From positions 146,985-210,984 of the forward strand of contig MDYQ01000069.1 of NCBI GenBank assembly GCA_003024175.1: a DNA stretch of 64,000 bases, given 5' to 3'. Both the position numbers and the translations under genes were made by a program. The notes under the pieces were generated by a model, which worked only from the letters and a program-made list of their open reading frames with translations, had not been told where the DNA came from and searched no databases. The stretch is from Planoprotostelium fungivorum. Taxonomy: Eukaryota > Evosea > Variosea > Cavosteliida > Cavosteliaceae. Below are positions 9,864 to 58,999 of the stretch, piece after piece. Position 1 is the first letter of the stretch. The number at the start of each line of letters is the position of its first letter.

Positions 9864-10168
9864 TAAAGAAGAGCTCTCTTCATCTCTTCAAAACCAACTT
9901 TCGCGCGGTGGATTGATCCGTTGTAAAATTTGTGATGGGAGACAAAAGCTACGACACGATGGATTCCCGTGCGGTCTCCCATCACAGTATTAGCATCGCC
10001 CACGACTGCTTACCTTACGAGTTCGGAATGGGATCGTTCAGTCAGGTATGATCGTAGCTGCGTGATCTACGCTTGACCACATATCTGTTCTGTTTAGAAT
10101 CCAAGCCCACTAATAAGATTTCACAATGTGCATCTTTCGTCGCGCAACATTTGACATAATCTCAACTT
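9864..10168. other. Intergenic between convergent genes, holding a 5S-like sequence
   Basis: Lies between the GH31 stop and the beta-helix gene stop on the opposite strand. Its only recognisable content is the truncated 5S rRNA copy annotated separately. Confidence 0.6.
9947..10060 (-). pseudogene. 5S rRNA-like copy with 6-bp deletion
   Basis: Read on the minus strand it runs from CAGCTACGATCATACC to GTCGTAGCT, with the internal-promoter box GATGGGAGACCGC and a TTTT terminator straight after. It is 114 bases; the two copies near 14.2 and 14.9 kb are 120. The missing six bases (ACCCAC after CTGAAC) belong to one strand of helix III/loop B, so the RNA could not fold normally. Otherwise almost identical to the intact copies. 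Probably a non-functional dispersed 5S copy; an expressed variant is possible. Confidence 0.8.
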
Positions 10169-13904: not shown

Positions 13905-14153
13905 CGTATGGTTATGAGATGTCCTATCCACCGCACTAATACCACCACAAAACACAAAAAAATATCCAAGGACCCCGCAGAAATTGTTTGAGCGGTAGAT
14001 TAACAAATCCTCTTCCTCGAAATTCAGATTCACCGCTCCTCTGACACAGGCCGCTCTGCCCATCATCATCACACGGTGATCTTGAACGTATCCACAATTT
14101 GTGCGTCAGGATGATGTACAGCCTCACACATCGGTTGGATCGAGAGAGACAAA

Positions 14154-14273
14154 AGCTACGACACGATGGATTCCCGTGCGGTCTCCCATCACAGTATTAG
14201 CATCGCCCGCGACTGCTTACCTAACGAGTTCGGAATGGGATCGTGGGTGTTCAGTCAGGTATGATCGTAGCTG
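14154..14273 (-). rRNA. 5S rRNA, copy A
   Basis: A 120-base minus-strand sequence with standard 5S landmarks: CTGAACACCCACGATCCCAT near the 5' end, TCCGAACTCG, GGTAAGCAGTCG, and GATGGGAGACCGC (Pol III box C). The 5' CAGCTACGAT and 3' GTCGTAGCT ends pair to form helix I. TTTT directly follows as terminator. Present again in copy B with two or three substitutions. Confidence 0.92.
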
Positions 14274-14531: not shown

Positions 14532-15241
14532 CCTCATCGTATGGTTATGAGATGTCCTATCCACCGCACTAATACCACCACAAAACACAAAAAAATATCC
14601 AAGGACCCCGCAGAAATTGTTTGAGCGGTAGATTAACAAATCCTCTTCTTCGGAATTCAGATTCACTGCTCCTCATGACACAGGCCACTCTGCCCGTCAC
14701 GCTTAGCTTCTTGACTCACAAAATGTTGGTATTTGTACATTGCACGACAGGACATTATGCACGACGTGATTTGTGATCATCACACGGTGATCTTGAACGT
14801 ATCCACAATTTGTGCGTCAGGATGATATTCAGCCTACACATCGGTTGGATCGCGAGAGACAAAAGCTACGACACGATGGATTCCCGTGCGGTCTCCCATC
14901 ACAGTATTAGCATCGCCCACGACTGCTTACCTTACGAGTTCGGAATGGGATCGTGGGTGTTCAGTCAGGTATGATCGTAGCTGCATGATCTTCTCATGAC
15001 GATCAGACAAAACCGTGCGATCACCCTGATCTCATCACCACCATCCATCCACAAAGACGACGACACCTCTGATCTCCAGCACGATCAGAACAGACATGAT
15101 GTGAAGAACGTATCGTTATCACGAGGAGGTCTGTTTATTCTCTCTAAAGTGGTCGAAACAGTCCTTCTCGATGAAATGCATCTCTCCCGGGATGATGAAA
15201 GAGTGGAGCGGTGTTCCAAAATCGACGTTGAGAAGTTCGCT
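14532..15241. repeat. Duplicated block, copy B
   Basis: 710-bp counterpart of copy A. It begins with the last bases of the beta-helix start-codon region (CCTCATCGTATGG) and runs without break into the intact DPH5 gene. Contains about 78 bases absent from A, around 14690-14770. Confidence 0.9.
14864..14983 (-). rRNA. 5S rRNA, copy B
   Basis: 120 bases, same landmarks as copy A: CTGAACACCCACGATCCCAT, the GATGGGAGACCGC box, complementary ends and a TTTT terminator. It has CCCACGACTGC where copy A has CCCGCGACTGC (plus strand). Lies about 135 bases downstream of the DPH5 stop on the same strand. Confidence 0.92.
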
Positions 15242-55043: not shown

Positions 55044-58000
55044 TTGGCGTCACGCATTGACCGCTCAGATGGTTGGGTGTCTACAATTCGTCAAGTTGGC
55101 TCACCTTTCTGCAGAAAGGAAACGGGGAAGGAAGAATCTGGGAAGTGTGGCACAGACAACATTTCTGCAGAAGGGAAGAGGGACTTTGTTACAAGAAAGA
55201 AGAAACAGAACAGAGCAAGCGCAACAGTCAAACTGACCACGTGGTTGACACAGACGGATCCAGAAGGAATAGAAGGTGTGCATCGATCTGTAGAAGAATA
55301 CTACTCAGCTCGATCTCACTAATGAGCACACAGCACAACACTACCCTCACTGAGTTCCCCCTCCCTGGTGAGCACAGAGAGGCGGAGAAAGACTGACTGA
55401 TGCGTAGGATATAAGACGGAGGCAGCAGAGACAGCAAAGATGCTGCAGCACAACACTACTCTCACTCAGCTCAATCTCTCTAGTGAGCACAGGGAGGCTG
55501 AGAAAGACTGACTGATGCTGTAGACAAGGTGATAGGAGCAGAAGGGGCAGCAAAGATAGTCAAGATGCTGCATCACAACACTACCCTCACTCAACTCGAT
55601 CTCTCTTGTGAGCACAGAGAGGCTGAGAAAGACTGACTGATGCTGTAGGCAATGCAATAGGAGCAAAAGGGGCAGCAATGATAGCAAAGATGCTGCAGCG
55701 CAACACTACTCTCACTCAACTTGATCTCTTTTGTGAGCACAGAGAGGCAGAGAAAGACTGACTGATAGTATAGACAATGCAATAGGAGCAGAAGGGGCAG
55801 CAGAGATAGTCAAGATGCTGCATCACAACACTACCCTCACTCAACTCGACCTCTCTAGTGAGCACAGAGAGGTAGAGAAAGACTGACTGATACTGTAGAC
55901 AATGCAATTGAAGCAAAAGGGGCAGCAGGGACAGCAAAGATGCTGCAGCACAACACTACTCTCACTCAGCTCAATCTCTCTAGTGAGCACAGAGAAGCAG
56001 AGGAAGACTGACCAATGATTTAGGCAATTGGATAGGAACAGAAGGGGCAGCAGTGATAGCAAAGATGCTGCATCACAACACCACCCTTACTCAACTCTGT
56101 CTCTCTAGTGAGCACAGAGAGGCAGAGAAAGACTGACCAATGATGTAGGTAATTGGATAGAAACAGAAGGGGCGGCAGAGATAGCAAAGATGCTACAGCA
56201 CAACACTACCCTTACTCAACTCAATCTCTCTAGTGAGCACAGAGAGGCTGAGAAAGACTGACTGATGCTGTAGACAATACAATAGGAGCAGAAGGGGCAG
56301 CAGAGATAGCAAAGATGCTGCATCACAACACTACTCTCACTCAGCTCAATATCTCTGGTGAGCACAGAGGCAGAGAAAGACTGACTGATACTGTAGACAA
56401 TGCAACAGGAGCAAAAGGGGCAGCAGAGATAGCAAAGATGCTGCAGCACAACACTACCCTCACTCAACTCGACCTCTCTAGTGAGCACAGAGAGGCAGAG
56501 AAGGACTGACTGATGCTGTAGACAATGCAATAGGAGCAAAAGGGGCAGCAGCAATAGCAAAGATGCTGCAGCACAACACTACTCTCACTCAGCTCAATCT
56601 CTCTAGTGAGCACAGGGAGGCTGAGAAAGACTGACTGATGCTGTAGACAATTCAATAGGAGCAGAAGGGGCAGCAGAGATAGCAAAGATGCTGCAGCGCA
56701 ACACTACTCTCACTCAGCTCAATCTCTCTAGTGAGCACAGAGAGGCAGAGAAAGACTGACCAATACTGTAGACAATGCAATAGGAGCAGAAGGGGCAGCA
56801 GAGATAGTCAAGATGCTGCAGCACAACACTACCCTCACTCAGCTCAATATCTCTGGTGAGCACAGAGAGGCAGAGAAAGACTGACTGATACTGTAGGCAA
56901 TGCAATTGAAGCAAAAGGGGCAGCAGAGATAGCAAAGATGCTGCAGCACAACACTACTCTCACTCAGCTCAATCTCTCTAGTGAGCACAGAGAAGCAGAG
57001 AAAGACTGACCAATGATGTAGGCAATCGGATAGGAACAGAAGGGGCAGCAATGATAGCAAAGATGCTGCATCACAACACTACTCTCACTCAACTTGATCT
57101 CTTTTGTGAGCACAGAGAGGCAGAGAAGTACTTACTGATGCTGTAGACAATGCAATAGGAGCAGAAGGAGCAGTGGAGATGGTCAAAATGCTGCATCACA
57201 ACACTACCCTCACTCAGCTGAATATCTCTGGTGAGCACAGAGAGGCAGAGAAAGACTGGCTGATACTGTAGGCAATGCAATAGGAGCAGAAGGGGCAGCA
57301 GAGATAGCAAAGATGCTGCAGCACAACACTACCCTCACTCAACTTGACCTCTCTAGTGAGCACAGAGAGGCAGAAAAAGACTGACTGCTATTATAGATCT
57401 CAATCTATCCCACTATCAACCAGTGATCTGTGGCACAATCCAGAAAACAATAGCAGAGAACAAACACAAAAAGAAGCATGCATTTGACACAAAGATGGCA
57501 GCAATAGACAGGATACAGAATCTGCAGGACCAGAAAGAGCAGATAAGAAGGAGGTACTGTCATCAAGTATCAAACAGTGTACAAGCAAGAGCAGAAACAG
57601 CAAGACATCATAACCAAGTTGTGGAGGAGGTAGGATTAAGAATAATGTTACATATAAAGACATAATAGCTCCAAAAATTACAAAGAGAGATGAAGAGGCT
57701 TGAGGAGATGTTGCAAATGAGACAAATGGAGAAACACAAGTTAGAGAAAGAGAATGAAAGATACATTGTGGCAGAGAAGGATGCAACAGAACAGATGCAG
57801 CAGGTGGAAAGAGAGATAGAAGAGTTGCAAAGAAAGAGGACAGAGCAGGAGGAAGAGGTAGCAGAGAGCAGTAGAATAAGAAGCAAAGGGCTGAAGCAGA
57901 TGTCAGTAGATGAGGTGACAGCAGAAAAGATACATATGGCTGACAACACAAATAGATAGAGAAGATGCTGCAAGAAGGACATGTGTCTAAACATGATACA

Positions 58001-58999
58001 GAGAGGTGCATTTAAAGATTGTGCTGTGAAGAGTCTGACATGATTCAGGATGAGAGAGAACAAGATAGACGGGAAGATACTGAACAAGACAACTGAGAAG
58101 GAGATGAGAGACCATCTGGGCATCAGTCTGGTAGGTAGCAAGACCATACAGTGGGTGGTAGAGAGGTATGTCAGCAACAGCAGATGTGAAAGAATGACAG
58201 AGGAAGGTTGCAGAGAAATGAGAAGATAGAGAGAAGCAGGGTGAGGGATGGATGATACACATAGGTGATAAAGATGCAGATAGAGAAGTGGACTGTGTTG
58301 AATGTAGAAAGATGGTTGATGCAGAAACAAGTGTCAGCGGAGAGCACAGCAAAGATAGTTGCAGCAAAAGTGAGTGACACAGCAGCAGACTGGCAGTAAT
58401 ATAGAGACAGATAGATGGAGTGAGCTTGCTGAGACTGACAACTGATGACATGATGATGCTGGGCATCAGTGCATTTGTTGAGCGCAAGAACATAGAAGAG
58501 CACATAGAAGAGTTGAGAGAACAGGCATATGGAAGAGTGGCAGATGAGATACAGAGGGGGTGATGTGTGATGATGAGAAAGAGATATGTGACAGAAGACA
58601 GGAAGATAGAAAGAGAGCTAGAGACATACGTGCTTAAGCACAGTGAGCTGCTGCAAGAGCTAGAAGAGCTACAGAGAAATAATGAGACAGAAGCAGAAGT
58701 GAGATAAGGAAGAGAAGTTGAGAGAGTGACAACAAGCAGGTACCAGAAGATTACATGTGTCCTATCACACAAGAGGTGATGTAGAACAGCAGTAGAAGAC
58801 TGATGGACAGTAGATGTTGATTGAGCCAGTGATAGCTGATGATGGACACACATATGAGAGACTGGCCATACAAGAGTGGTTTGCCAGAGGACAGAAGACC
58901 TCACCTGTGACCAATGCACAGCTGGGCAGTCTGAACTTGATACCCAATCACAGGCTGAAGGCAATCATATCCACATACAGAGAGAAGAATGGAATATAG
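55044..58999 (+). CDS. LRR(~17) - coiled coil - SAM - SAM - U-box protein
   Basis: Exons join consistently in phase 1. From about 55331 to 57357 the gene has about 17 ribonuclease-inhibitor-type LRRs (NNAIGAEGAAEIAKML, then QHNTTLTQLDLS), each 28 residues and each in its own 84-base exon, separated by 41-base introns. Coiled coil at 57430-57900 (MKRLEEMLQMRQMEKHKLEK). SAM domain 1 at about 57890-58175 (SKHDTERMRENKIDGKILN after removing a 48-base intron). SAM 2 at 58270-58480 (WTVLNVERWLMQKQ, IDGVSLLRLTTDDMMMLGI). U-box at 58742-58999 (VPEDYMCPITQE, PVIADDGHTYERLAIQEWF), ending KNGI. Probably a sensor-type E3 ubiquitin ligase. The N-terminal exon is uncertain. Codon use is A-rich, unlike its neighbours. 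Confidence 0.8.
55331..57397 (+). repeat. Tandem array of 125-bp exon+intron units
   Basis: Each unit is an 84-base LRR exon plus a 41-base intron (GTGAGCACAG...CTGTAG). About 17 units. Introns are as conserved as exons, apart from a 39-base version near 56357. The first unit is degenerate (TEFPLPGYKTEAAETAKML) and the last runs into a different exon (NLSHYQPVICGT). Confidence 0.9.

Follow-up and report, generated by a model that had tools for sequence, protein, structure and literature searches.

Human LRSAM1 is described, in a review (PMC7874611), as an LRR array followed by a coiled coil, a SAM domain, a PTAP motif, another coiled coil and a RING domain, and a second paper (PMC3087547) tells of a two-SAM U-box protein without WD40, reported in 2010 from Monosiga brevicollis. 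The gene described here lies in a 64,000-nucleotide stretch of Planoprotostelium fungivorum DNA (contig MDYQ01000069.1, hereafter the window); its product carries LRRs, then a coiled coil, a pair of SAM domains and a U-box. An initial annotation, made from the sequence alone, took this order to match no standard family it knew, wrongly in view of these two precedents. The likeness to LRSAM1 is one of layout: LRR arm, coiled coil, SAM and a C-terminal E2-binding domain come in the same order. However, LRSAM1 has a RING (C3HC4), one SAM, six LRRs and the PTAP motif, whereas the window protein has a U-box (and not a RING, according to Pfam), two SAMs, about 17 LRRs of the RNase-inhibitor type and no P[TS]AP motif in its 876 residues. 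WDSUB1 and the Monosiga protein, compared by description, share the order SAM then U-box, but where the window protein has its LRR array WDSUB1 has WD40 and the Monosiga protein nothing; with no WD40 match at E<=1, the window protein is not WDSUB1 proper. The U-box-TPR-LRR_6 protein P0126 also joins an LRR_6 array and a U-box, but its U-box is N-terminal, its LRRs are C-terminal, it has TPRs, and no SAM occurs among the 25 families shown. Protein searches found no full-length relatives beyond this genome. I read the locus, with a probability of roughly two in three, as a single intact gene for an LRSAM1-like U-box E3 ubiquitin ligase, in which the LRR horseshoe would bind a substrate or ligand, several copies would come together through the coiled coil and the tandem SAM pair, and the C-terminal U-box would recruit E2~ubiquitin and so modify the bound target or the protein itself.

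The spliced gene is a single open frame starting at ATG 55322 (Table 1); read in the two alternative frames, it is interrupted by 75 and 42 stops. All 26 introns are GT-AG and 35-43 nt long, with splice sites picked by hand. The initial annotation had proposed one gene of this layout, to be given up if correct splicing left in-frame stops; none is present in the 27 exons, and the open frame and the Pfam domains bear the proposal out. Its start at 55044 is not supported: Pfam matches nothing within 55044-55319 at E<=1, and ATG 55322 is the sole ATG of the open frame running into the LRRs. Degenerate LRR-like sequence is visible by eye upstream of 55322. The array is tied to the C-terminal part by the intron between the last LRR exon and the coil exon, as this intron is itself one of the copies of the LRR-unit intron. 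On the minus strand, ORFs of 203-325 aa at 57400-58964 are likely a by-product of the purine-rich plus strand.

Table 1. Features of the LRR-coiled coil-SAM-SAM-U-box gene, in window positions
Feature	Position	Strand	Basis
Whole coding gene, LRR-coiled coil-SAM-SAM-U-box (27 exons, 876 aa)	55322..58999	+	spliced gene model and Pfam
Exon 1: start ATG plus part of an N-terminal LRR	55322..55367	+	gene model; true 5' end uncertain
Exon 2: divergent LRR, 75 nt	55408..55482	+	gene model
15 LRR exons, 84 nt / 28 aa each; 125-bp tandem unit; phase-1 introns of 41 nt (one 39)	55524..57355	+	
Intron, last LRR exon to coil exon	57356..57396	+	copy of LRR-unit intron
Coiled coil preceded by a degenerate last LRR (NLNLSHYQ..., by eye), from aa 461; intron 57630-57668	57397..57914	+	
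SAM domain 1, ~aa 616-675; introns 57915-57955, 58006-58048	57900..58165	+	weak Pfam, paralog alignments
SAM domain 2, aa 693-757; intron 58370-58404	58289..58518	+	Pfam
Charged linker, proposed second coil; intron 58560-58601	58519..58698	+	periodicity p 0.57
U-box, aa 804-874; intron 58776-58813; stop codon 58997-58999	58740..58996	+	Pfam, structure alignment

The U-box is complete, as the initial annotation had it, scoring 69.3 bits in the whole protein (Pfam, cut-off 21.4) over profile positions 1-71 of 73. As a raw exon it scores 49.4 bits, and once its two exons are joined in the spliced module 74.2; it is detected together with the second half of SAM2 in the raw unspliced genome too, and it aligns over 73 aa with the solved structure of plant PUB12 (E 6e-16) and also with CHIP. 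Two stretches of the spliced protein match SAM_1 at E<=1 (38.5 bits). The two SAM domains claimed earlier stand on unequal ground: SAM2 by itself reaches 32.2 bits (25.5 in the raw genome, before exon joining), while SAM1 by itself stays at 18.9, under the cut-off of 23, and is assigned through shared introns and alignments to the first SAMs of the paralogs C52 (score 61; shuffled 23.0 +/- 4.2, 0/1000) and C192 (56; shuffled 26.4 +/- 5.1, 0/1000). Its alignment to the first SAM of C155 is weak (17/1000 shuffles as high), and it has no similarity to the second SAM of C52 (714/1000). Within the window protein, BLASTP finds no similarity between SAM1 and SAM2, and their Smith-Waterman score of 54 is equalled in 1/500 and 0/1000 shuffles. 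The coil is assigned from periodicity and composition. Over aa 500-620, the main coil, the periodicity is heptad-like (shuffle p 0.001) in a non-specific test that the LRR array passes too; for the second half of this coil by itself p is 0.16. The linker coil ahead of the U-box is weak (p 0.57).

Pfam marks 15 LRR_6 stretches in the spliced protein (305 bits), and TRF a tandem repeat with a period of 125 (15.8 copies, 87% matches), each unit of which pairs an 84-nt phase-1 exon with an intron of 41 nt. By sequence these are 28-residue LRR_6 repeats of the RNase-inhibitor type, which would form a horseshoe. Since all but one of the 16 internal LRR exons measure 84 nt, the remaining one is 9 nt shorter, and a partial N-terminal and a degenerate C-terminal repeat flank them, the "about 17" NLR-style LRRs of the initial annotation are a fair count (16-17, of the RNase-inhibitor/NLR type). 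Two introns of the array deviate in length, by 1 and 2 nt, and comparison of the units shows an array that is highly homogenised. It probably lengthened via duplication of the 125-bp exon-plus-intron cassette, which keeps the frame because the exons are 84 nt with phase-1 ends. Among the units, pN/pS is ~0.12 at 17 structural positions and ~0.93 at four outward strand positions; constraint acts on the core of the LRRs. An LRR_6 search of the genome does not list the window's own array and is therefore not a census of LRR genes, and among the matches listed by a literature search on NLR exons of 84 bp encoding LRRs none was relevant.

The layout is not an accidental fusion, as the diverged paralog C52, on another contig of the same genome (C52:65062-67341, plus strand), has the same order, with at least 4 divergent LRRs against the ~17 near-identical ones of the window protein. 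The LRR part of C52 scores 41.7 bits with LRR_6 (36.3 with the coil included; cut-off 23.4), and its LRR exons measure 84, 96 and 84 nt, with phase-1 introns. Aligned to the window protein, C52 scores 308 over SAM-SAM-U-box (shuffled 37.9 +/- 6.3, 0/500) and 125 over the LRRs (shuffled 32.6 +/- 6.1, 0/500), and 6 of the 7 module introns of C52 fall at the identical column and phase, a match that is not fully blind because the splice sites of C52 were chosen by hand with the window gene in view. Two other genes carry the module: C192 is SAM-SAM-U-box, and C155 has the order UEV-CC-SAM-SAM-U-box, its UEV scoring 39.6 bits against a cut-off of 27. In C52 and C155 Pfam marks one SAM each, the first ones resting on alignments. 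In a tree of U-boxes (20 rows, 75 columns) the window U-box groups with that of C52 (support 93/84) and this pair with C9 and C432 (87/83), both under the program's mark of 95/80; plain U-box identity to the window protein is 54% for C9, 53% for C432, 51% for P0001 and 47% for C52. A symbiont origin of the U-box was considered, as the ankyrin-U-box proteins P0001 and P0007 are among its best matches, and was rejected on the tree, which puts the window protein with C52. These genes form a small family in which a SAM-SAM-U-box chassis carries differing N-terminal arms (LRR short, LRR long, UEV).

What the LRSAM1-like ligase would do in the cell can be read in more than one way. Quite possibly, though at less than even odds, it is an endosomal, ESCRT-linked or protein-quality E3 whose LRRs are an ordinary substrate adaptor with no part in sensing. 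The LRSAM1 review cites 'Tal, a Tsg101-specific E3 ubiquitin ligase' (PMC7874611). The sibling C155 joins a TSG101-type UEV to CC-SAM-SAM-U-box. Tal is presumably LRSAM1 itself. However, the link comes via the sibling only, as the window protein has neither a P[TS]AP motif nor a UEV match in Pfam.

An NLR-like immune receptor, with SAM in the place of NACHT, LRRs that bind microbial ligands, oligomerisation by SAM and signalling by the U-box, is unlikely. The window protein does share LRR_6-type repeats with NLR receptors (NLRC3, the NLRP family), its best match in a whole-protein search is a coral NLRC3-like protein, many of the matches listed carry NACHT, and the array matches the structures of NLRP and RNase inhibitor, while its outward strand positions change about as fast as silent sites. 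But RNase inhibitor, RanGAP and dynein regulatory proteins are matched by these repeats as well, Pfam finds no NACHT or NB-ARC in the protein, and the assembly yields none at E<=0.01 (20 and 3 candidates scored, introns ignored, after a prefilter). The chassis, with U-box output and SAM assembly, is moreover common to the UEV member. The initial annotation's picture of an NLR with its switch replaced is thus not upheld, the non-LRR part belonging to the SAM-SAM-U-box family; its combination of LRR arm, SAM assembly and ubiquitin output fits, and the paralog of the same layout strengthens it.

Codon usage sets the gene apart, being very unlike that of its neighbours and paralogs: Ile is ATA in 48/61 cases (C52 0/27, C155 2/29) and Ala is GCA in 83/88. 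A pool of 27 other exons has ATA 30/247 and GCA 48/232; it leaves out the window's own exon (L009) and four with stops inside the match (L004, L006, L011, L041), and includes exons of C52 and C192 as well as a pair that belongs to a single gene (L038, L040). Shared ancestry within one genome is not by itself enough to account for this bias, and a rival reading is that the gene arrived recently by horizontal transfer, out of some other eukaryote whose codon usage is A-rich. However, the window gene and C52 have introns in common and stand together in the U-box tree, both C52 and C155 have short introns, and the genes on either side, like C52, have ordinary codon usage; given the introns common with C52, I consider transfer distinctly improbable. 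Short introns were dropped as a mark of horizontal origin, since the 11 modelled introns of C52 measure 39-54 nt and 6 of the 9 in C155 37-51 nt (the others 91, 95 and 167 nt). The purine-rich coding strand was likewise dropped as a foreign mark, as, of 758 overlapping segments of 1 kb from the compared loci, C464 excluded, 20 also lie beyond 0.40-0.60 purine. The coil exons of the LRR genes C321, C158 and C33 are 61-63% purine with ordinary codon usage (C321: ATA 3/19, GCA 4/37), so purine richness tracks coils, unlike the codon bias. That the gene is a pseudogene in decay, or that repeats were collapsed in the assembly, as the degenerate upstream sequence, the odd codons and the homogenised array might suggest, is very improbable against 27 stop-free exons, the low pN/pS of the core and frame-breaking length changes that are confined to introns.

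In the putative LRSAM1-like ligase described here, the LRR-CC-SAM-E3 plan is realised with a U-box and RNase-inhibitor-type LRRs; one genome retains it in two paralogs that have diverged, next to siblings whose N-terminal arms differ. The swapping of recognition arms on an E3 chassis is thereby open to direct test, and the cassette, with one exon for each LRR, illustrates a way for a recognition array to grow with its frame intact. It is a speculative and rather doubtful idea that self-assembling ubiquitin ligases swap such arms on a fixed SAM-SAM-U-box chassis, the window member being a fast-evolving receptor whose LRR number varies between individuals via frame-neutral 125-bp cassette duplication, as E3-coupled recognition outside the NLR lineage. 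If the LRRs do sense microbes or damaged compartments, the protein would stand as a receptor of E3 type that is independent of the NLRs.

The initial annotation had placed the LRRs, the coiled coil, two SAM domains and the U-box in one gene, and this is borne out: a single spliced frame runs open for 876 amino acids to its end at 58999, and the in-frame stops that had been named as evidence against it are absent, while the alternative frames of the spliced sequence hold 75 and 42. Pfam finds in the spliced protein, in order, LRR_6 (15 stretches, 305 bits), SAM_1 twice (38.5 bits for both stretches together) and the U-box (69.3 bits). From raw exon to spliced module the U-box score rises from 49.4 to 74.2 bits, and that of the second SAM increases with splicing from 25.5 to 32.2 bits. 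The LRRs form a tandem array of 15.8 copies of a 125-bp unit, consisting of an 84-nt exon that encodes one 28-residue LRR and a phase-1 intron of 41 nt (39 in one). The 17 near-identical introns that part the LRR exons are 39-41 nt long, start with GTGAGCACAG and end with TAG, most of them with CTGAC near the 3' end, and the exon behind the last unit-like intron (see table) apparently begins with a degenerate LRR before the coil. The C-terminal part has nine further introns, of 35-43 nt. On the minus strand three overlapping open frames of 203-325 aa are present at 57400-58964, which are probably a mere by-product of the purine-rich plus strand.

Features of the window and of related genes on other contigs (C) of the same assembly, with fetched loci (L)
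Feature	Location	Strand	Remarks
LRR-coiled coil-SAM-SAM-U-box gene	window 55322-58999	+	
Intron, last LRR exon to coil exon	window 57356-57396	+	copy of LRR-unit intron
LRR-coiled coil-SAM-SAM-U-box paralog (L074, L010)	C52:65062-67341	+	LRR_6 41.7 bits (cut-off 23.4)
UEV-coiled coil-SAM-SAM-U-box gene (L053)	C155:185777-187735	-	model without 5' end; UEV 39.6 bits, SAM_1 32.0, U-box 63.9
SAM-SAM-U-box gene (L007)	C192:36665-37724	+	two SAM stretches by Pfam
5S rRNA gene	window 9946-10059	-	Rfam RF00001, 82-100 bits (three genes)
5S rRNA gene	window 14153-14272	-	as above
5S rRNA gene	window 14863-14982	-	as above

Among the 15 full LRR units the mean identity is 89% for introns and 86% for exons. 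As the units are non-independent because of duplication, the pN/pS values are to be read with this in mind: about 0.53 across all 28 positions (column bootstrap 0.29-0.91), about 0.12 for the 17 structural positions and about 0.93 for unit positions 26, 28, 1 and 3, the four outward strand positions by the LRR consensus. Seven helix or loop positions reach about 1.6, a post hoc value for positions chosen after inspection of the data and no test of positive selection.

In the 36.86-Mb assembly (471 contigs), genome profile searches at E<=0.001 gave 12 listed matches each for U-box and SAM. The U-box places are the window gene, the UEV gene, one on contig C58, scanned as open frames only, and nine others, for which Pfam was run in three frames on the 1.5 kb before the U-box. 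Within this reach a SAM precedes the U-box on C192 (30.5-34 bits) and C52 (18.8 bits), and none was found on C9, C432, C20, C459, C173, C326 or at 168k of C155, of which the last carries Ufd2P_core. The paralog on C52, modelled without a defined gene start, has three LRR stretches by Pfam and at least four repeats by exon (exon lengths 84, 96 and 84 nt, introns in phase 1), and it has in common with the window gene a 50-nt exon in the first SAM and a 36-nt exon in the U-box. Pfam recognises one SAM in it (33.9 bits); the first SAM aligns to that of the window gene with a score of 61 (shuffled 23.0 +/- 4.2, 0 of 1000 as high) and to that of the C192 gene with 54 (again 0 of 1000). The SAM-SAM-U-box parts of paralog and window gene align at 308 (shuffled 37.9 +/- 6.3), and six of the seven introns in this part of the paralog agree in alignment column and phase, the seventh being in phase and two columns off, with one extra intron in the window gene; this match is strong but not blind, since the splice sites on C52 were chosen manually with knowledge of the window. 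The next gene upstream of the paralog may, judged by eye, be a tubulin-tyrosine-ligase homologue. The UEV gene joins a TSG101-type UEV to the chassis of a U-box ligase; Pfam finds one SAM in it, and its first SAM aligns weakly to the other SAMs (scores equalled by 1 to 26 in 1000 shuffles). The C192 gene may also have, upstream, a zinc finger of the C2H2 type (zf-C2H2, E 0.038, below cut-off).

Another tandem array of LRR exons and introns lies on C242 (L050:2650-5080). Its units are mostly 124-139 bp apart, NEIGSEGAAAIAQSLANNTTLTTLNL is an example of its repeats, its last units seem degenerate by eye, and an F-box-like start stands before it (E 0.0011, below cut-off). At E<=0.01 the genome search gave 147 F-box-like matches, from 150 scored candidates out of 245. 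Because the LRRs also precede long coil-like stretches in genes on C158 (L055), C321 (L056) and C33 (L058), and on C158 a match to a protein kinase (55.4 bits) follows downstream on that strand, as part of this gene or of another, a layout of LRRs and coil with different outputs may be common in this genome. Neither NACHT nor NB-ARC was found in the genome searches.

The codon usage of the window gene is extreme, with ATA in 48 of 61 Ile codons and GCA in 83 of 88 Ala codons, versus 30 of 247 and 48 of 232 in a pool of 27 other exons, and the non-repetitive C-terminal half is biased too (23/31 and 19/23). ATA is used 0/27 times in the C52 paralog and 2/29 times in the UEV gene, so that this bias is confined to the window gene as compared with neighbours and paralogs. 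Its coding strand is 62% purine, and the window exceeds 0.60 purine in twelve 1-kb stretches, all of which start inside this gene; purine richness alone also occurs in the coil exons of other LRR genes, whose codon usage is ordinary. The codon bias could stem from local mutation bias, or from transfer from a related species of differing codon usage.

Three protein searches, covering 5.8 billion sequences, listed no match with the architecture of the window gene; their reach (0.55-1.75 times the query length, shared 5-residue words) may let rarer relatives escape. With the C-terminal part as query, 6 and 10 matches were obtained (7994 and 2486 candidates scored), all with a U-box and none with a SAM among their precomputed domains; Pfam on 10 of the 13 proteins gave one sub-threshold SAM (20.6 bits, cut-off 23), in P0003, with the layout SAM-U-box-ankyrin, another arm on a SAM-U-box layout. 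The ankyrin-U-box proteins P0001 and P0007 (51% and 47% U-box identity to the window gene) have N-termini that look lipoprotein-like by eye. The whole protein gave 979 matches (7985 candidates scored), and among the best 120 only P0126 is listed with a U-box, its layout being U-box-TPR-LRR, and none is listed with SAM_1 or SAM_2.

As for known families, PMC7874611 gives LRSAM1 the order LRR-CC-SAM-PTAP-CC-RING, and PMC3087547 gives WDSUB1 the order WD40-SAM-U-box and describes a Monosiga relative with a U-box, two SAMs and no WD40. The C-terminal half of the window gene resembles WDSUB1 and this relative, and the gene as a whole would act in the style of LRSAM1; its protein has neither RING nor P[TS]AP, which sets it apart from LRSAM1, nor WD40, which sets it apart from WDSUB1 proper. 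No report of LRR, SAM and U-box in combination was found in the literature searched, whose coverage leaves most subscription journals outside.

U-box domains recruit E2~ubiquitin, LRRs of the RNase-inhibitor type are protein binders, and self-association is a property of SAM domains and of coiled coils. Beyond the anatomy and the family, which the data show, I infer that the simplest mechanism would be that of a multivalent E3, in which the LRR arm would bind a target, the SAM and coil parts would assemble copies of the protein, and ubiquitin would be passed to the target or to the E3 itself. What the arm recognises may be microbes, damage or an endogenous substrate. A possible connection to ESCRT or endosomes is suggested by the UEV sibling; if it held for the window gene, it would echo LRSAM1 and Tsg101, going by a title that PMC7874611 cites.
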